Origin: a virus | Reading direction: 5' to 3' (one strand) | DNA: 24,265 nucleotides | IMG/VR virus record: IMGVR_UViG_3300013772_000020 | Span: 21,199-45,463 of that record | Part shown: positions 12,513 to 24,265 of the stretch, piece by piece | Position numbering within the stretch: the stretch's first letter is position 1 | Layout: every line of letters begins with the position of its first letter | Notes under the pieces: generated by a model | The model's input: only the letters and a program-made list of their open reading frames with translations | Databases searched by the model: none | Told to the model about the DNA's origin: nothing | Translations under genes and position numbers: made by a program

Positions 12513-13123
12513 TGTCAGCAACACTCGATTTGATTCGTCGGAAGCTGCTCGATGCCCTGACGCCTGTCGTCAAGCAAGTCGGGCAAACGCATATGCCCTA
12601 CACGCACAAGCTCGTGACCGGCGTCGACTACTTCGCCGTGCAAAAGCTGATCAGGCCCGGCATGGTTTGGCTCACCCACACAGAGGGCGAGGCATCGACG
12701 CTGCTGATCCCGGGCTTCTTCACCCACGCCGCCATGGCGATCGACGAGAAGTCCGTTGTGCAGGCCACCGGCGCCTCTGGTGTCGCGGTCGCCGATCTCG
12801 TCAGCTTCATGCTGTCGAAGGACTACGTCGTGCTGCTGCGCCCAACGTTTGCCACCGACGTGCAGATGAGCGTGGCGGCAGCTTGGGCAGCGAAGCAAGT
12901 CGGTGCGCCCTACGACTACGAGTTTGGCATGAATGTGAAAGCGTTTTACTGCTCAGAGCTGGTGTGGGCGAGCTACCGCGACACGATCGGCGACAGCGTG
13001 CCGTTTGTGATGACCGAGGAGCTTGGCGTCCGGACGGTCTCACCCGACTCTATCTGGCAGGACAAAGGCAAGTTTGAAACCGTGTGGCAATCGGCATCGT
13101 GTGTCGGGAGGCGTCTAGTCTAG
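12512..13123 (+). CDS. YiiX/NlpC-P60-like papain-fold peptidase
   Basis: A 203-residue protein; ATG 12512 in a TGATG overlap, AAGGGG upstream. It has the circularly permuted papain order: a hydrophobic F-F-T-H72-A-A-M-A-I-D with the catalytic His first, then Y-D-Y-E-F-G-M-N-V-K-A-F-Y-C147-S-E-L-V-W with the nucleophile Cys in a helix start. This is the arrangement of YiiX/YebB-like peptidases (Peptidase_C92), which act on peptides, amides or acyl groups. In a phage packaging/structural cluster it may cleave cell wall or process a virion protein. The substrate is inference. Confidence 0.7.
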   Translation: MSATLDLIRRKLLDALTPVVKQVGQTHMPYTHKLVTGVDYFAVQKLIRPGMVWLTHTEGEASTLLIPGFFTHAAMAIDEKSVVQATGASGVAVADLVSFMLSKDYVVLLRPTFATDVQMSVAAAWAAKQVGAPYDYEFGMNVKAFYCSELVWASYRDTIGDSVPFVMTEELGVRTVSPDSIWQDKGKFETVWQSASCVGRRLV

Positions 13124-14577
13124 TGCGTCCTGTCATTGAATCGAAGTCCTTCTCACGCAGCTCACTCCACGAAGTCTTTCGCCGGAACGACCTGGCGTAT
13201 TTTGCCAAAGACATGCTCGGCATGGAAATCTCCGGTCACCACGAGGAGTGGTCGGAGCTGGTGGCGAAGAACACGCGGCTTGCTCTTAACGCTCCGCGTG
13301 ACCATGGCAAGAGCTACTTCTTCAGCTTCGCCTATGCCATCTGGCGCCTCTACTACGGTTGGATTCCGCCGCTTCCTGACGCCAGCTTCAAGTCCATTCC
13401 GCGCCGCTCGCTCGGCTATATCTTTTCTTCCAGCCAAGAAAACGCCATCAAGTTTGTCGAGCAGGTGAAGGTCGAGCTGGAGTCGAATCCACGGCTTCGC
13501 CACCTTGTGCCGGTATCCAAGCGCGACAGCACATGGAGCAAGACCGAGATCGTTTGCGCCAACGGTGCGACGCTTCGAGCGAAGGGCTGGGGGAATGCAG
13601 TGCGGGGCGGTCACCCTGGCTGGGTGATCTGCGACGACGTGCTTGGCGAAGAGAACCTTTACTCCGAGGTCCAGCGGCAAAAGCAGATCGATTATTTCTA
13701 TTCGGCCGTGACACCGATGGTCGTGCCTGGTGGATCAATCTGCGTGATCGGCACGCCGTTTCACCAGGAAGACCTCTACGCCGACTTAGAGCGCAATCCC
13801 GAGTATTTCTTCAAGCGCTACTCGGCGATCAAGAAGGACGGCACGGCGCTGTGGCCGACGCGCTACAGCCGCCATATGCTCGATCAGAAGAAGCGCGAAG
13901 TCGGCTCGACGCGCTTCACTCGGGAATATTTGTGCGTGCCGATCAGCGACACGAACAGCCTTTTCCCTGAAAATGTCGTGCGTGAAAACTTCCGTGACGA
14001 CCTCTCGCTCGTCACTGAGATGACCGCGAGCTACCGAAACGAGTACACGCTTTTCACTGGCGTTGACCTGGCGCTGTCCTCAACGATTGGCGCTGACTTC
14101 ACCGTGATCACGACGATTGGTGTCGACAAGCACAAGAACCGCCGGCTCTTCGACATCCGGCGCTTCAAGGGCCGGACGATGACCGAGCAGCTTCACGAGA
14201 TCGAAGACGTGTACCGCTGCTACCGGCCTGCTAAGATATACGTGGAAGACAATCAGTTTCAGCGCGTCTTCGCCGACGCTCTCGTCAGAAATACCGACCT
14301 GCCTGTCGAAGGCTTCACGACCACGGCGCACAACAAAAACTCTCTTGAGCGCGGTGTGCCGTCCCTTCAGATCCTCTTCGAGAACAAGAAATTCATGATC
14401 CCTCGGAAGACTGAGCGCGACCGTCGCATCACCGACGACCTGCTCCACGAGCTACGCTGCTTCACCTACGTGAACGGCAAGCTTCAGGGCCTTGGTGCCC
14501 ACGACGACTGTGTGATGAGCCTTTGGATTGCGAACGAGTGCTCGCAGTCTTCCGAGTTTAGCTTCAGCTTTGGGTGA
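13123..14577 (+). CDS. terL: Terminase large subunit
   Basis: A 484-residue packaging motor. GTG 13123 overlaps the previous TAG and has GGGAGG upstream. ATPase domain: Walker A A-P-R-D-H-G-K-S (57-64), Walker B V-I-C-D-D (168-172) and the coupling motif G-T-P (210-212). The C-terminal RNase-H-like nuclease has its acidic residues in T-G-V-D (D315), Y-V-E-D (E375/D376) and A-H-D-D (D461/D462). The complete motif set indicates a functional enzyme that translocates and cuts DNA at the portal. The portal gene is 5.7 kb downstream, a larger gap than usual. Confidence 0.95.
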   Translation: MRPVIESKSFSRSSLHEVFRRNDLAYFAKDMLGMEISGHHEEWSELVAKNTRLALNAPRDHGKSYFFSFAYAIWRLYYGWIPPLPDASFKSIPRRSLGYIFSSSQENAIKFVEQVKVELESNPRLRHLVPVSKRDSTWSKTEIVCANGATLRAKGWGNAVRGGHPGWVICDDVLGEENLYSEVQRQKQIDYFYSAVTPMVVPGGSICVIGTPFHQEDLYADLERNPEYFFKRYSAIKKDGTALWPTRYSRHMLDQKKREVGSTRFTREYLCVPISDTNSLFPENVVRENFRDDLSLVTEMTASYRNEYTLFTGVDLALSSTIGADFTVITTIGVDKHKNRRLFDIRRFKGRTMTEQLHEIEDVYRCYRPAKIYVEDNQFQRVFADALVRNTDLPVEGFTTTAHNKNSLERGVPSLQILFENKKFMIPRKTERDRRITDDLLHELRCFTYVNGKLQGLGAHDDCVMSLWIANECSQSSEFSFSFG

Positions 14578-17183: not shown

Positions 17184-17423
17184 ATGCACTACCGGAACGG
17201 TCGTGAAGCGAAGAATGGGGACGTGCTGGTGAAGTTGGAGGGCGGCAAGGTCGTGTCCTTTGGCGTCTTGCATGATGCGACATCGGGGAACGATTACTGC
17301 AATGGCAGCATTGCCCCAATTACTAAAGATCAGATGGCCTGCATCGTTGACTGTCTGCACGTTGATGACGTTGCAGCAATCTTGGCCGAGAAAGGCTTGG
17401 ATAAGAGGCCGGCAGGAAAATGA
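17184..17423 (+). CDS. Small conserved phage protein
   Basis: A 79-residue protein with AGGAGA before ATG 17184. It begins M-H-Y-R-N-G-R-E-A-K-N-G-D-V-L-V, a stereotyped start of a widespread phage small-protein type, and has N-D-Y-C-N-G-S-I-A-P, then a helical C-terminus. Likely a small beta barrel plus helix. Function unknown. It overlaps the methyltransferase start by ATGA. Confidence 0.7.
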   Translation: MHYRNGREAKNGDVLVKLEGGKVVSFGVLHDATSGNDYCNGSIAPITKDQMACIVDCLHVDDVAAILAEKGLDKRPAGK

Positions 17424-18544
17424 ACGGCTTCACGGAACACAAACTTCCAGGCGTGCGCCTATTCGGCGGCGACAGCGAAGTTGTGCTTCCGTTTTTGCTG
17501 AAGGAAGAGGTTGACTCGATAGTTTGCGACCCACCGGCTGGGATTAACTTTCTTTCTAAGAGCTGGGATAGCGACAAGGGCGGCCGTGATGAGTGGATTA
17601 AGTGGTTGACGCGCATTTCGCGTGAGATGTTGCGCACGCTCAAGCCCGGCGGTCACGCGCTCGTATGGGCGCTCCCGCGCACGTCACACTGGACGGCGAC
17701 GGCGCTTGAGAATGCTGGCTTTGAGATCCGCGACGTGGTGACCCATATTTTCGGTTCGGGTTTCCCAAAATCACACAACGTCGGTGACATGGGCAGTGGG
17801 CTTAAGCCGGCGACTGAAAATTGGATTCTTTGTCGTAAGCAGCTTGTCTTCGCGCACACAACGATCAAGGGCAATCGCAAGCGTGAGAGCCAGACAATTG
17901 CTGAGACAGTCGTGAAGCACGGCACTGGTGGACTCAATATTGCGGCGGCACGAGTTGGCAAAGAGAAGCGCTTCAGCGCTCCGGCGAAGGCTGGCAAGGA
18001 CACCTTTAATTGCAGCTTCGATTCCGAATACACTGGCAAGGAAGTTGCTGGTCGTTGGCCTGCCAATCTCGTTTTAGACGAGGCAGCGGCGGCAATACTG
18101 GATGAGCAGAGTGGTCACCTGCATGGCCCAGGGAACAAGACACGCACCGTCGGCGGTGTCGATGTTGGCATGTTTGGCAATGGCATAAAGCGACCGCCGC
18201 GTGTTGACAACATTTGTGATAGCGCTGGTGGTGGCGCCTCTCGTTTCTTTTACTGCGCCAAGGCGTCTAAGCGCGACAGGGGTGAAGGCAACGATCATCC
18301 GACGCCAAAGAACACCGAGCTGATGTCCTACCTGATCAAGCTCATCACGCCGCCTGGTGGCATCGTCCTTGATTGCTTTATGGGGAGCGGTAGCACTGGA
18401 GTGGCCGCTGTTCGTGAAGGTTTTAAATTCATCGGTATCGAACGAGACAATCACTACATGCGCATCGCCGAAAAGCGCATTTCCAACGCCAAGGAGAACG
18501 TCAATGATCAGGCACGATCAGCCAGCGCTGCTCATCACAAGTGA
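17420..18544 (+). CDS. Orphan DNA methyltransferase (N6-A/N4-C, beta class)
   Basis: A 374-residue enzyme starting in an ATGA overlap. Motif IV is D-P-P-A (37-40), followed by G-I-N-F-L-S-K-S-W-D; motif I is D-C-F-M-G-S-G-S-T-G (318-327) with F-I-G-I-E-R-D. Motif IV before motif I, with the target-recognition region between them (~100-300), is the beta class of amino-methyltransferases (N6-adenine or N4-cytosine). DPPA replaces the usual DPPY, a variant seen in phage enzymes. No restriction enzyme is visible nearby, so it probably modifies phage DNA against host restriction. Its 3' end overlaps the next gene by 41 nt. Confidence 0.9.
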   Translation: MNGFTEHKLPGVRLFGGDSEVVLPFLLKEEVDSIVCDPPAGINFLSKSWDSDKGGRDEWIKWLTRISREMLRTLKPGGHALVWALPRTSHWTATALENAGFEIRDVVTHIFGSGFPKSHNVGDMGSGLKPATENWILCRKQLVFAHTTIKGNRKRESQTIAETVVKHGTGGLNIAAARVGKEKRFSAPAKAGKDTFNCSFDSEYTGKEVAGRWPANLVLDEAAAAILDEQSGHLHGPGNKTRTVGGVDVGMFGNGIKRPPRVDNICDSAGGGASRFFYCAKASKRDRGEGNDHPTPKNTELMSYLIKLITPPGGIVLDCFMGSGSTGVAAVREGFKFIGIERDNHYMRIAEKRISNAKENVNDQARSASAAHHK

Positions 18545-19628: not shown

Positions 19629-20239
19629 AAGACCCACTGGCAGATCTGGTTGGCCGTTTGCGCAAGTCGACGCCCGCCTCCGTCAGCAGACCTCAACGCG
19701 CCGCTCCAGTTTCGGCTGGGCCGGCGCCAGCGTCTTTTCTGAAGTCGGCTGGGCCTGGCGGTCTCGTCTTCGACTTTGGCCCGCTCACCGGCAATCCGAT
19801 GGCCGACAACTTCACGATCGTGCTCAACCGCTTTTCCGAGCCGGTGCAGGAGTCGATTGCACGGCAGCAGCGTCAGCAGTTTTCCAAGGCGATGGGTGAC
19901 TACGTCGCCAGCGGTGTCGACGCTCGGGAGTCGGGCGTTTCGGCGCACGAGGAGTGGAATAAGTCGCTGTCGAAGAGCTTTGATGAGCAGACGGCAGAGG
20001 CGATTTGTTCCGGTGACGTGACGATAGAATCCGGTGTTCCAGGCGTGCCGTCGGCGTCGCCGCCGCCACGTGGGTCGATGATCAAGGGTCAATTCAATCA
20101 GACGACCATGAAGCTTGGCGGTGAGCAGATAGTCGCGCAGTCCGAGACGGATGCAGCGGTGATCGAAATGATGAAGTCGCTTCAGGGCTCACCGGATGAT
20201 GGCGAGTACGTGATCGACGAGACTGCGGAAGGTATCTAA
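19625..20239 (+). CDS. Hypothetical protein upstream of portal
   Basis: A 204-residue protein (ATGA overlap start). It begins M-K-D-P-L-A-D-L-V-G-R-L-R-K, then a Pro/Ala/Ser linker. A helical region (~60-125) contains E-P-V-Q-E-S-I-A-R-Q-Q-R-Q-Q-F-S-K-A-M-G. A Pro-rich linker leads to a more acidic C-terminus. No family recognised. It lies directly before the portal with a 1-nt TAATG overlap, so it is probably co-translated and may be a portal partner. Confidence 0.6.
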   Translation: MKDPLADLVGRLRKSTPASVSRPQRAAPVSAGPAPASFLKSAGPGGLVFDFGPLTGNPMADNFTIVLNRFSEPVQESIARQQRQQFSKAMGDYVASGVDARESGVSAHEEWNKSLSKSFDEQTAEAICSGDVTIESGVPGVPSASPPPRGSMIKGQFNQTTMKLGGEQIVAQSETDAAVIEMMKSLQGSPDDGEYVIDETAEGI

Positions 20240-22050
20240 TGGGTTTCGTCAAAGACGCGCTGCAAAAGTCGGTAAGCTTCATCACGCAAGAGGTGATGCC
20301 GATTCGCCATGAGCTGGTGAAGGCGGGGCTGCTGGCGCCGAGGGAGCCGCGCGGCTACGAGCCGAAGGCCAATCTGAGCGATCCGTACTCGTTCAACATG
20401 ATGAACTACGGATACAAAGAACGCTTCTCGATGCTCGACTACTACAAGCTCAGGCAGATCTCCTACGCTGATCCGATCGTCGCGGCCATCATTCAAACGC
20501 GCACCAATCAGGTCGCGTCCTTTGCCGTGCCGCAGGTGAATAAGTATAAGGTCGGCTTCAAGATCTCGCTGCGCGACAAGAAGCAACACGCCTCCAAGGG
20601 CAGCGACAAGCACGCACACGAGACGCAGCGCTTCATTATGAACTGCGGCTTCCCCGAAAGCTTCGCCGATGCCGACCGGAGAAAGCGCGACAGCTTCGAG
20701 CAGTTTCTGCGCAAGATCACTCGCGACAGCCTCACCTTCGATCAGCTCAACTTCGAGGTGATCCCGCGCCGCAACGGCATGCCGGCCGAGTTTCTCGCGG
20801 TCGACGCCGGCACCATGCGGCTGCTGGCTGACGCCAAGGACATGCAGGACATCAACTTTCAGCAGGGACAGATCAAGGTCGACTACACCGACGTGATGGC
20901 GCAGCAGCCGGTGAAGACCGACTTCCCCTCGAAGAAGCCACTGCTCTGCCAGGTGATGCGCGGCACGATCCTGCACACCTTCGACGAATGGGAGATGGCT
21001 TTCGGCGTGCGCAATCCGCGCACCGACATCCTCGCCAACGGCTATGGCTTCTCTGAGATTGAGATGCTGATCGCCACCGTCGCGGCGCACATGAACGCCG
21101 AGACCTACAACCGCAAATTTTTCTCTCAGGGCTCGGCGATCAAGGGTGTGCTCACCTTCGAGGGCTCGGTGCCGCCCGATCAGCTCGAAGCTTTCCGGCG
21201 TCAGTGGCATCAGCAGGTCTCGGGTGTCAACAACGCCTGGAAGACGCCGATCCTGTCGCTCGGCAAAGACGGCAAGCTCAACTGGCAATCACTTCACTCC
21301 AACAACCGGGAGATGGAGTGGGGCAAATACATGGAGTATCTGATCAAGTCGATCTGCGGCGTCTTTCAGATCGATCCCATCGAGATCGGCTTCGACATCT
21401 CGAAGAATCCGAGTGGTGCGTCCAGCGGCCTCACCAATGGCGGCGGCTTCGCCTGGGACCGCCTGCAATACTCGATGGACAAGGGCCTTGGCCCGCTTCT
21501 CCGTTTCATTCAGCACCTGATCAACGAGTACCTCGTTTGGCGCATCGATCCCGACTTCGAGTTTGAGTTTGTCGGTCTTGAAAGCCGCGACGAGAAGGAC
21601 GACACGGCGATCGAAGTGCAGCAGGTGAAAGCCTTCAAGACGGTCAACGAGCTGCGCGCCGAGCACGACCTCGACAAGCTGCCAGAGGCGGACCAGATCA
21701 AGTCGGTCGGCGACATCATCCTTGACCCAACTTTCCTTCAGGCCGTGACGGCGCTAAATCCGCAAACCCAAGCGATGGCGATGGCCGGGGCGGGTGGAGG
21801 TGGCGGCGGCCCTCCGGGCGCAGCAGGAGGCAAGTCTGGCGCTGGAGCGGGCAAGCCTGGGGCCGGCGGTGATCAGCCACCCGAGCCAGATTATGAGTCG
21901 ATGTCGAGCGATGATCTTCACAAAGAGCTTGCCAAGTTGACCGGAGGTGGGGCTGAGCCCGCACCCAAGGCCGGTGGCGTTAAACCAGGCAAGTCTGCGG
22001 AGCAGAGCAGGTCGGCTCCGGTGAAGAAGAGCTTGGAGCTTTTATTGTGA
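20239..22050 (+). CDS. Phage portal protein
   Basis: A 603-residue protein. Residues ~60-480 fit a portal: Y-Y-K-L-R-Q-I-S-Y-A-D-P-I-V-A-A-I-I-Q-T-R-T-N-Q-V, then the wing/stem region D-E-W-E-M-A-F-G-V-R-N-P-R-T-D, Y-G-F-S-E-I-E-M-L and I-C-G-V-F-Q-I-D-P-I-E-I-G-F. The order of connected strands and helices, and the F-Q-I-D-P-x-E-I-G motif, are typical of portal proteins. The last ~120 residues are a Gly/Ala/Pro-rich tail. The portal forms the DNA entry ring and docks the terminase. Confidence 0.85.
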   Translation: MGFVKDALQKSVSFITQEVMPIRHELVKAGLLAPREPRGYEPKANLSDPYSFNMMNYGYKERFSMLDYYKLRQISYADPIVAAIIQTRTNQVASFAVPQVNKYKVGFKISLRDKKQHASKGSDKHAHETQRFIMNCGFPESFADADRRKRDSFEQFLRKITRDSLTFDQLNFEVIPRRNGMPAEFLAVDAGTMRLLADAKDMQDINFQQGQIKVDYTDVMAQQPVKTDFPSKKPLLCQVMRGTILHTFDEWEMAFGVRNPRTDILANGYGFSEIEMLIATVAAHMNAETYNRKFFSQGSAIKGVLTFEGSVPPDQLEAFRRQWHQQVSGVNNAWKTPILSLGKDGKLNWQSLHSNNREMEWGKYMEYLIKSICGVFQIDPIEIGFDISKNPSGASSGLTNGGGFAWDRLQYSMDKGLGPLLRFIQHLINEYLVWRIDPDFEFEFVGLESRDEKDDTAIEVQQVKAFKTVNELRAEHDLDKLPEADQIKSVGDIILDPTFLQAVTALNPQTQAMAMAGAGGGGGGPPGAAGGKSGAGAGKPGAGGDQPPEPDYESMSSDDLHKELAKLTGGGAEPAPKAGGVKPGKSAEQSRSAPVKKSLELLL

Positions 22051-22217
22051 CCGACGAGCAGCGTTTTCTGGCGAAGATCGAGCGCATCGGCGATTGCTGG
22101 CTGTGGCGTGGATGGCTTTGTTCTGGCGGCTACCGTGCTGCGCTTGCGGCGCGCTTCGGTGTTTCGGTGCCAACGATTGAAGCGGTGGTGCGTGGCTATA
22201 ATTGGAGTCACGTTTGA
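22047..22217 (+). CDS. Degenerate HNH/HTH endonuclease remnant
   Basis: A 56-residue ORF, GTG 22047 in a GTGA overlap with the portal stop. Its front, D-E-Q-R-F-L-A-K-I-E-R-I-G-D-C-W-L-W-R-G, is the start of phage HNH endonucleases (G-D-C-W-x-W-x-G). It then jumps straight to L-A-A-R-F-G-V-S-V-P-T-I-E-A-V-V-R-G-Y-N-W-S-H-V, the HTH that ends the same proteins. The HNH catalytic core in between (H-R-x-x-Y, D-H-x-C, N-x-x-H-L) is absent. It is therefore an internally deleted, probably non-cutting remnant, possibly kept as a DNA-binding peptide. Confidence 0.75.
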   Translation: MTDEQRFLAKIERIGDCWLWRGWLCSGGYRAALAARFGVSVPTIEAVVRGYNWSHV

Positions 22218-22477
22218 AAGTCATCATCGAGGCGGACAGCCAGGACGAGCTTGACCAGAAGCGTCCCGAGCTGCTGACGGCGCTGGCCGGCAATCGCTTC
22301 GACTGCATTGTGAAGTCGAAGGTGAAGGGCGTCTACTCGGACCAGAAGCCAGCCTTGACGCCGCGTCAGAGCCCGATCCGCGCTGAGAACGAGATACTGG
22401 CCTGGTGGGACGCGGAATGGGACCGGATGATCGTTGCGATGAAGGATGAGATCGATGCCATTTTGCTCAACACCTGA
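22214..22477 (+). CDS. Small helical phage protein
   Basis: An 87-residue protein. TTG 22214, overlapping the previous TGA, has TTGGAG six bases upstream; this start gives M-K-V-I-I-E-A-D-S-Q-D-E-L-D-Q-K-R-P-E-L-L, a strand and helix pattern common in small phage proteins. A Pro/Arg linker and a Trp-rich end (I-L-A-W-W-D-A-E-W-D-R-M-I-V) follow. Function unknown. The second copy of the palindrome lies 19 nt after its stop. Confidence 0.6.
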   Translation: MKVIIEADSQDELDQKRPELLTALAGNRFDCIVKSKVKGVYSDQKPALTPRQSPIRAENEILAWWDAEWDRMIVAMKDEIDAILLNT

Positions 22478-22490
22478 ATTCTTCATCGAA

Positions 22491-22985
22491 ATGTCAACTT
22501 CACCGGTGAAGTTGGTGAAGGCGAAAGTCACCACCAGGACGGCGGCCTATGGACGTGCCATGAACGCCAGCATGGCTCAAAACGCCAACACGCTCGCGCA
22601 CAGTGGCTATGACGCCGAGGTGGCTTCCATCGGTGTCATGGACGGCGACAAGCTGCTCATGGGCAAGCGCAAGGACAACGGCAAGTGGACGCTCCCGGGT
22701 GGCCACCTGGAAGCCAAAGAGAAGCCCCACTGCGGCGCTCTTCGTGAGCTTTACGAAGAGACGGGCATCGTGGCGCAGCAGCTCGACACCTTGGGATGTC
22801 AGGGCGTCATCGGCCGCGACGGCAGCACGATCATGGTCCATGCCTACGTGCTGACGGCGTCACCTGAGACGACGACGACGCTCGATCCCGACGGTATCGG
22901 CCTGGCCGCCGAGATGGCGCAAGCGCCGCCCCCAAGGGCCGCCAAGCCTGCGGGCTCCCTTTCCCCGGCCAGCCCCGCACTCTGA
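22491..22985 (+). CDS. Nudix hydrolase
   Basis: A 164-residue protein from ATG 22491; ATG 22560 or 22572 are alternatives that leave the whole catalytic domain intact. It has V-A-S-I-G-V-M-D-G-D-K-L-L-M-G-K-R-K-D-N-G-K-W-T-L-P-G-G then a perfect Nudix box G-x5-E-x7-R-E-L-x-E-E-x-G-I at residues 71-93. Nudix enzymes hydrolyse nucleoside diphosphates linked to another group. A phage copy may recycle nucleotides or hydrolyse host signals. After V-H-A-Y-V-L the tail is Ala/Pro-rich instead of the usual D-x-D-G-E-V-x-x-W strand, hinting at a C-terminal frameshift. The substrate is unknown. Confidence 0.85.
   Translation: MSTSPVKLVKAKVTTRTAAYGRAMNASMAQNANTLAHSGYDAEVASIGVMDGDKLLMGKRKDNGKWTLPGGHLEAKEKPHCGALRELYEETGIVAQQLDTLGCQGVIGRDGSTIMVHAYVLTASPETTTTLDPDGIGLAAEMAQAPPPRAAKPAGSLSPASPAL
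22496..22513. promoter_or_regulatory. 18-bp perfect palindrome, copy 2
   Basis: AACTTCACCGGTGAAGTT is a perfect palindrome with the same 14-bp core (CTTCACCGGTGAAG) as the one at 6573-6590, with a symmetric change in the second base pair of the palindrome. It lies in the 5' part of the Nudix ORF, or in its leader if the start is 22560. This fits an operator for a dimeric phage regulator. Confidence 0.55.
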
Positions 22986-23100: not shown

Positions 23101-23481
23101 ATGTTCAAGCACTGGCTCTCCGATGCCATTGAAAGCGTCGCCAAGGACCGTCCATCACTTGCACCAAAGGAGCGGAGGGATATGCAATCCGCCCGCGCCT
23201 CACTCGACGAGTGGCTCGGGCTTGAAAAGATACCCTCCGTTCGATCCCCACCCATGCCAGGAACAGAGATGCCCCAGGCCGGCTCCCCGACCGTTGCACC
23301 GCCCTCAGACCCGGAAGCGCTCTTGAGGGAGGAGCAGGCGGCTAAATTCTTGGACGTGCCACGTCGCACGCTCCAGGACTGGCGCTACCACGATCGGGGG
23401 CCTACCCCAGTGAAGCTTGGCGACCGATCGGTGCGATATCGCCGGAAAGACTTGCTTGCATTCATTGACGGGAGACGCTGA
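23101..23481 (+). CDS. Excisionase-like MerR/AlpA-type HTH protein
   Basis: A 126-residue protein with AGGGG before ATG 23101. The N-terminal 70 residues are helical then Pro-rich. Residues ~75-125 form the HTH_17-type fold: L-L-R-E-E-Q-A-A-K-F-L-D-V-P-R-R-T-L-Q-D-W-R, followed by G-P-T-P-V-K-L-G-D-R-S-V-R-Y-R-R-K-D-L-L-A-F-I. This matches excisionase/AlpA-like DNA-binding proteins. Next to attP and integrase the natural role is recombination directionality factor, though a repressor or activator of int is possible. The long N-terminal arm is not usual for small Xis proteins. Confidence 0.75.
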   Translation: MFKHWLSDAIESVAKDRPSLAPKERRDMQSARASLDEWLGLEKIPSVRSPPMPGTEMPQAGSPTVAPPSDPEALLREEQAAKFLDVPRRTLQDWRYHDRGPTPVKLGDRSVRYRRKDLLAFIDGRR

Positions 23482-23503: not shown

Positions 23504-23523
23504 GTGGTTGCTCAGTGGTTGCT
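23504..23523 (+). repeat. attP arm-type repeat, left copy
   Basis: GTGGTTGCTCAGTGGTTGCT contains two GTGGTTGCT units with an 11-bp period, about one helical turn. An identical 20-bp copy is at 23733-23752. Paired 9-bp direct repeats flanking a core are the expected arm-binding sites of the N-terminal domain of a tyrosine integrase. Confidence 0.75.
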
Positions 23524-23570
23524 TGCCGCCTGAGCGGCTGTGGGGGAGACTCTCTAACCCCGGAGAACTA

Positions 23571-23617
23571 TGGAGCCGTAGAGCGGAGTTGAACCGCTGA
23601 CCTGCTGATTACGAATC
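23571..23617 (-). other. tRNA-Thr(CGT) 3' half: attachment core
   Basis: On the minus strand this reads as a tRNA 3' half: anticodon loop TTCGTAA (anticodon CGT, Thr), a perfect T-arm AGCGG-TTCAACT-CCGCT, acceptor strand CTACGGC, then TCCA. The 5' half is not present: upstream sequence does not pair with the acceptor or anticodon stems. A 3' tRNA fragment next to an integrase gene is the typical core shared by attP and attB, implying the phage integrates into a tRNA-Thr gene and restores its 3' end. Confidence 0.8.
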
Positions 23618-23732
23618 GCCGTTCGTGCTTACGGTGCTCTACTGCCAAATCCTGCCTGTTCCGAAACTCCTAGTTTTTTAGGCTCATCAACACGGCGCAC
23701 GACTGCCCGGCCACGGTCCGTTTCTGTAGCTG

Positions 23733-23752
23733 GTGGTTGCTCAGTGGTTGCT
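23733..23752 (+). repeat. attP arm-type repeat, right copy
   Basis: This 20-bp sequence is identical to the one at 23504-23523, in the same orientation. It sits 76 bp before the integrase start, so integrase binding here could also repress its own gene. Confidence 0.75.
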
Positions 23753-23827: not shown

Positions 23828-24265
23828 ATGAGCTTCACCAAGACCTACATCGAGGCCGCGAAATACGAAGCCAAGAGCGGTGGCGCCGACTACCGCTGGG
23901 ATGATGAGGTGCCGGGGCTCGGCTTGCGCATCTATCCAAGCGGCAAGAAGGCATTCGTCGTCGTGTATCGGCTAAACGGCCGGAAGCGATTTATGACGGT
24001 TGGCAAGTGCGGCGTGCTGTCATTGACTGATGCTCGGGCTGAAGCCAGGCGGCAGATCGGTCGGGTCTATTCTGGTTCCGATCCGATGGAGGAGCGGCTC
24101 CGCGATGCCGACGCGAAGACCATGGACGACCTATGCAGTAGGTTCATAAGCGACCATGCGTCCCAAAAAAAGTCGTACCGGATGTATCAGTCGATCATCA
24201 ATCTGCACGTATTGCCGGCATTCAAGCACCGCAGAGTGATGAGCCTTAAGCAATCGGACATCGCC
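23828..24265 (+). CDS. int: Tyrosine-recombinase integrase, 5' part
   Basis: The window contains 146 codons from ATG 23828 (GGAGG nine bases upstream) and runs off the end without a stop. Residues ~12-90 match the DUF4102 arm-binding domain (V-P-G-L-G-L-R-I-Y-P-S-G-K-K-A-F-V-V-V-Y-R, then M-T-V-G-K-C-G-V-L-S-L-T-D-A-R-A-E-A). Residues ~100-146 begin the SAM-like core-binding domain. The catalytic domain with R-H-R-Y residues lies outside. It would recombine the 47-bp core with a host tRNA-Thr gene. High confidence in the family. Confidence 0.9.
   Translation, partial: MSFTKTYIEAAKYEAKSGGADYRWDDEVPGLGLRIYPSGKKAFVVVYRLNGRKRFMTVGKCGVLSLTDARAEARRQIGRVYSGSDPMEERLRDADAKTMDDLCSRFISDHASQKKSYRMYQSIINLHVLPAFKHRRVMSLKQSDIA

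Follow-up and report, generated by a model that had tools for sequence, protein, structure and literature searches.

A well-formed attP beside myophage genes that probably belongs to another element

The stretch of DNA analysed here (24,265 nucleotides, hereafter the window) is the right end, positions 21199-45463, of a 45,463-bp IMG/VR record classed as linear. Judged by its layout, it holds a joined-type attP of a DUF4102 integrase group, next to the structural genes of a large phage. This well-formed site is probably not native to that phage, to which it appears to have been fused at about position 22892, most likely by chimeric metagenome assembly. The att architecture is already known in kind, and the window adds one member to it. 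The features on which the argument turns are the following (window coordinates).

13084..14577, + strand: phage terminase large subunit (PHROG 38, 1.1e-76)
20239..22050, + strand: phage portal protein (PHROG 12, 3.2e-54)
22202..22477, + strand: small ORF 3' of the portal gene, also in relatives (22 of the 76 portal loci give a tblastn match)
22446..22892, + strand: truncated Nudix-domain gene (NUDIX profile 6-105 of 134; homology stops after residues DPD)
22892..22893, no strand: putative junction between the phage and the attP-int element (end of phage homology; composition shift)
22893..22985, + strand: non-homologous tail of 30 codons, continuing the Nudix ORF in frame and followed by a stop
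23101..23481, + strand: HTH_17 protein P0002, which may be the element's RDF or a regulator (PF12728, 4.9e-9; PHROG 66)
23504-23523, + strand: P arm, predicted twin Int arm-type units (20-mer repeat; 47 bp to the 3' end of the tRNA, close to the spacing of the integrated relatives)
23571..23618, - strand: attP core, the 3' part of tRNA-Thr(CGT), from anticodon loop to CCA
23733-23752, + strand: P' arm, predicted twin Int arm-type units (20-mer repeat; equivalents in 15/15 closest integrase loci)
23828..24265, + strand: DUF4102/Arm-DNA-bind_3 tyrosine integrase, N-terminal 146 aa; the gene runs off the end of the contig

The attachment site and its integrase

The two arms are exact copies of the 20-mer GTGGTTGCTCAGTGGTTGCT, at 23504-23523 and 23733-23752 and thus 229 bp apart, and each is composed of two 9-bp units whose starts lie 11 bp from one another; the earlier note, in which these repeats were first described, had both positions and spacing right. 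The 9-mer GTGGTTGCT has four occurrences across all 45,463 bp of the record, each inside the two 20-bp repeats, and on the opposite strand of the record it is absent. The window has a single exact direct repeat of 20 bp whose copies lie within 300 bp of each other, against none in 200 order-2 Markov simulations, and the exact 20-mer was not found in IMG/VR.

Between the arms lies the 3' end of a tRNA-Thr(CGT) gene, adjoining a DUF4102 integrase, as had likewise been read from the sequence, the integrase being truncated. ARAGORN finds no complete tRNA at the core; the Rfam tRNA model aligns at full length with 23574-23645 at 18.7 bits, below the cut-off of 29 bits because the 5' half is degenerate. 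When up to three mismatches are allowed, a 42-bp core has matches in 38 of 396 Acidobacteriota genomes, the closest differing at two positions, and nine of the ten core-matching Acidobacteriota loci that were scanned are called tRNA-Thr(cgt). The exact 42-bp core has no match in either of the two collections searched, genome contigs and viral contigs, and DNA similarity to phages amounts to only 42 bp of a tRNA-Thr.

The integrase fragment matches Arm-DNA-bind_3 (PF13356, formerly DUF4102; 1.1e-16), the arm-binding domain by which IntSXT/DUF4102 integrases are recognised, as well as Phage_int_SAM_3 (5.1e-5). The tyrosine recombinase catalytic domain PF00589 is found in a relative on another IMG/VR contig (L193, see below), the window gene ending before that part. 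Close relatives of the 146-residue fragment were not found in IMG/VR. DUF4102 integrases are present in some phages, Aeromonas phage ST4 having one of this same type.

On the far side of the core, the HTH gene belongs to PHROG 66, annotated as 'excisionase and transcriptional regulator', and has homologues in at least ten loci with related integrases. The idea of a proven Xis was dropped, the relative of this gene in one integrated element (L179) being located mid-element, where it adjoins a DUF3987/PriCT_2 protein. The int-attP-xis order had been called unusual, a remark that is weakly grounded: uncoupled int and RDF genes are already described in the accessible text of PMC2951348, according to which these genes are uncoupled in KplE1, HK620, Sf6 and CUS-3, and attL overlaps the int promoter.

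For comparison, the 146-residue integrase was aligned with five relatives and 84,980 species genomes were then scanned, which yielded 471 relatives, the best 80 of the 471 being kept. The 15 closest loci (L086-L100) are 38-46% identical to the window integrase (40-46% for the ten best), their hosts being mostly Chromatiaceae, with some Nitrospinota, Acidobacteriota and others. Directly upstream of int, all 15 of them, and L147 in addition, show at least two units of type TGGTGACTCA with an 11-bp period, and in the thirteen upstream regions that were printed and inspected by eye, the 3' part of a tRNA on the opposite strand adjoins the twin-unit region. A loose twin-unit pattern (three mismatches) is found upstream of int in 19 of the 80 loci, yet also in 8 of 80 reversed controls, and the evidence is therefore limited to the top 15 loci and L147; for L091 and L095, whose first loose-pattern match is not int-proximal, the int-proximal site was taken from the upstream sequence instead.

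A pattern search of 12 of these genomes recovered second twin-unit copies. Between the distal twin unit and the 3' end of an intact tRNA there are 46 bp in L100, L178 and L179 and 48 bp in L180, the corresponding distance in the window being 47 bp. Both ends are in view for three elements, L100 (tRNA-Arg), L178 (tRNA-Asn) and L179 (tRNA-Arg), whose arms lie 6.1, 6.8 and 10.3 kb apart, respectively; in L100, the tRNA is restored at one end, and int stands beside a 3' fragment. A joined form is offered by L193, an IMG/VR contig of 10,163 bp with an exact 127-bp terminal repeat, in which arm, tRNA-Arg, arm and int follow one another within about 220 bp, the arms being 200 bp apart.

It is from the arm layout of the integrated relatives and of L193 that the window site can be read as a joined attP. 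An integrated prophage boundary (attL or attR) is ruled out, for the arms of the integrated relatives stand at opposite ends of the element, 6-10 kb apart, versus 229 bp here; in L193, as in the window, they flank the tRNA core. Along the same line, arm-type sites are present on both sides of the core, with no intact tRNA or host sequence in between, and the earlier call of attP, rather than attL or attR, holds. More generally, twin units with an 11-bp period, placed near a tRNA 3' end and again just upstream of int, are a signature for one DUF4102 integrase group, by which the ends of elements can be recognised and attP distinguished from attL and attR.

The TGGTGACTC twin pattern picks out four stretches in IMG/VR, L193 among them, all four with a related integrase. 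The pattern TGGTTGCTCNNTGGTTGCTC was rejected as a marker of att arms: it returned 42 IMG/VR stretches, none of them with a P0001-like integrase, and the ten arrays inspected all lie within ORFs. These 42 stretches (L195-L236), with 11-bp-period units of type TGGTTGCTCGT and no P0001-like integrase, are recorded here as an observation in their own right.

The phage genes and the break in the Nudix domain

Left of about 22892, the DNA is, by its gene content, that of a large SPO1-like myophage, apparently a virulent one. SPO1-like phages belong to the Herelleviridae. The portal protein is 53-58% identical to those of nine IMG/VR relatives and about 40-44% identical to those of SPO1-like phages, and the terminase large subunit is 59-65% identical to its counterparts in three of the portal relatives (L010, L012, L013). 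Further left in the record are a DnaE-type polymerase, thymidylate synthase, UvsX-like and SbcCD proteins. It is only for the left part of the window (portal) that the likeness to SPO1-like phages holds, and the polymerase of SPO1 is of another type than DnaE. The phage part also encodes several DNA methyltransferases (window 17420-18544 and L003:1-1104; PHROG 67 and PHROG 498), the L003 one with a weak ParB-like match.

Portal searches of IMG/VR gave 76 related loci, in 21 or 22 of which the portal gene is followed by the small ORF, by a Nudix-domain protein or by both. Neither a tyrosine integrase (PF00589) nor a serine resolvase (PF00239) was found in any of the 30 records tested out of these 76; ten of the 30 exceed 100 kb, and since the relatives scored in this way are partly fragmentary, the absence need not extend to the whole lineage. 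Control genomes were positive in 14/14 and 10/14 cases in the same domain test. The window integrase and HTH protein have matches in none of the 76 portal loci.

A further observation concerns the Nudix gene. In 18 of the 21 matching loci, the alignment ends at residue 149, that is, at position 22892, and all 18 relatives run on past this residue with the conserved DPD-x-E-[VAI]...[NE]L[HN]S[PK]; 13 of them reach a stop 654-1,425 residues from the start of the match and five run off their contigs. As to the other three loci, L058 has its stop after 148 and L030 after 235, and L019 meets the contig end. When the 30-codon tail that replaces the conserved continuation in the window was searched against plasmids (E up to 10) and against the fetched loci (E up to 0.05), neither gave a match. 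In L012, the Nudix gene is flanked by the portal gene on one side and the head protease gene on the other, with those for scaffold and major head protein following; for these proteins of the relatives (protease, scaffold, head), no convincing counterpart turned up anywhere in the record. In the portal relatives, the protein that begins with the Nudix domain is a giant, reaching about 1,425 aa at most (L034:12814, L038:9271, L039:1369, L044:2120), and in the three giants tested no known Pfam domain follows the Nudix.

Composition changes at the same place. Scored with an order-3 Markov model, the final 1,373 bp resemble the phage least, none of the 187 other segments scoring lower (z about -3.4). 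This segment includes non-coding att DNA, which may lower its score and weakens the test.

Origin of the joined molecule

Two different sources are favoured because a conserved domain is broken, the relatives are free of integrases and the composition shifts; with the head genes absent as well, the same observations assign the attP-int module to another element. The earlier note had taken the complete site for a sign of free phage DNA, be it virion or episomal, and had named repeats belonging to another element as the circumstance that would speak against this; such repeats are what the break inside the Nudix domain at 22892 points to, and the lack of any tyrosine integrase or resolvase in the 30 phage relatives is equally at odds with a free form of this phage. 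Nor does the alternative of a circularised form agree with the record, whose ends are joined by no exact repeat of at least 25 bp and which stops inside int. The own attP of a temperate phage has the same phage on both flanks, a continuity that here ends at 22892.

Among the three readings of the join, namely a chimera, a true recombinant and a phage-satellite hybrid, chimeric assembly is the simplest and, on the sequence evidence, the most likely. It is in line with a chimera that the record was scaffolded across three 10-N gaps. Counting against one are the similar G+C, the position of all window genes on one strand (+) and the lack of any N run inside the window, the last of the three gaps ending exactly at the window start; the presence of this integrase type in Aeromonas phage ST4 counts against it too. 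A real event, in which a large phage of a SPO1-like lineage with no known integrases captured a complete HTH-attP-int module from a tRNA-Thr island or satellite, the module splitting a Nudix gene of the head region, whether as a switch from lytic to temperate life or as a helper-satellite hybrid, is a minority possibility. Its more specific version, that of a large SPO1-like myophage which gained the module inside the Nudix gene by illegitimate recombination and is, or was becoming, temperate, would be in keeping with the gap-free junction, with the common strand and with the occurrence of DUF4102 integrases in some phages; it would also require the missing head genes to sit past int, exactly where the contig stops. 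It is nonetheless rather unlikely, given the cut in a conserved domain, the 0/30 relatives with an integrase and the change of composition at the join. Were the join real, a virulent myophage lineage would have gained an integration module, which would be rare.

The remaining two explanations are far less probable. That the phage is normally temperate with a native attP, as the earlier note implied, its Nudix protein being simply shorter, would account for a complete site with both arms adjoining int and for the contiguous phage genes to the left; it is very hard to reconcile with a domain cut short where 18/18 alignable relatives are conserved, with the 30 integrase-free relatives and with the lack of int or HTH homologues in the 76 portal loci. 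Just as improbable is a packaged or recombining hybrid molecule, formed when a virulent phage mobilised the attP element: transduction of islands by jumbo phages has been published (PMC12595487, in its accessible part), and L193, with the same att layout, has capsid, protease and small-terminase genes, but nothing points to a host or packaging signal shared by phage and element, and the junction lies away from the att core.

Under the preferred reading of a chimera, the right end of the window would stem from a tRNA-Thr-targeting integrative element, an island or a phage satellite, with a DUF4102 integrase, present in joined form as a circle, concatemer or tandem. The N-terminal domain of Int, by analogy with its family, would bind the twin 11-bp-spaced units on both arms, a role for which the DUF4102 subgroup literature provides the basis (PMC8138268, available sections), and its catalytic domain would recombine the tRNA 3' core with a host tRNA-Thr gene. 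On integration, the tRNA would be made whole again at the HTH-gene end, with int coming to lie next to the 3' fragment, to judge from the orientation and as in L100. An island attP in a virus record is not strange in itself, since excised islands form circles or concatemers and can be carried by large phages (PMC12595487), and virulent phages, too, reportedly have satellites (PMC10803314). A well-formed attP beside phage structural genes is no proof of a temperate phage, and gene-level homology should be checked across the flank.

Comparison with known elements

The IntSXT subgroup and the P4 cluster, as presented in the available sections of PMC8138268, share with the window the DUF4102 N-terminal domain, a tRNA target and arm sites near the core; in the window, only 146 residues of the integrase are present and the target is tRNA-Thr(CGT). 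The integrated Chromatiaceae elements L100, L178 and L179 are like the window in having twin 11-bp-period units at both ends, a tRNA on the strand opposite to int and a P arm close to the tRNA (46 bp there); they differ in the units themselves (TGGTGACTCA versus TGGTTGCTCA in the window), in their targets, tRNA-Arg or tRNA-Asn, and, in L179, by an HTH gene inside the element. L193 shares the order of twin arm, tRNA core, twin arm and int, unlike the window having a tRNA-Arg(tcg) complete enough for ARAGORN and a P arm 27 bp from the tRNA; this spacing varies, reaching 69 bp in L192. L193 looks like a capsid-forming phage satellite, and it also encodes a prohead protease, an HK97-type capsid protein, a small terminase, RecT, a replication initiator and a repressor.

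Satellites of the P4, PICI or PICMI type combine int and a regulator with primase or packaging genes and lack a full virion set; of these genes, the window offers only int and the HTH gene, and L178 and L179 carry DUF3987. The DUF3987 proteins of these small tRNA-integrated Chromatiaceae elements are encoded at L178:4577-7399 and L179:6202-8862, the latter also with PriCT_2 and Toprim_3 domains, and a further element of this kind carries an N-6 methylase gene (L100:7303-8382).
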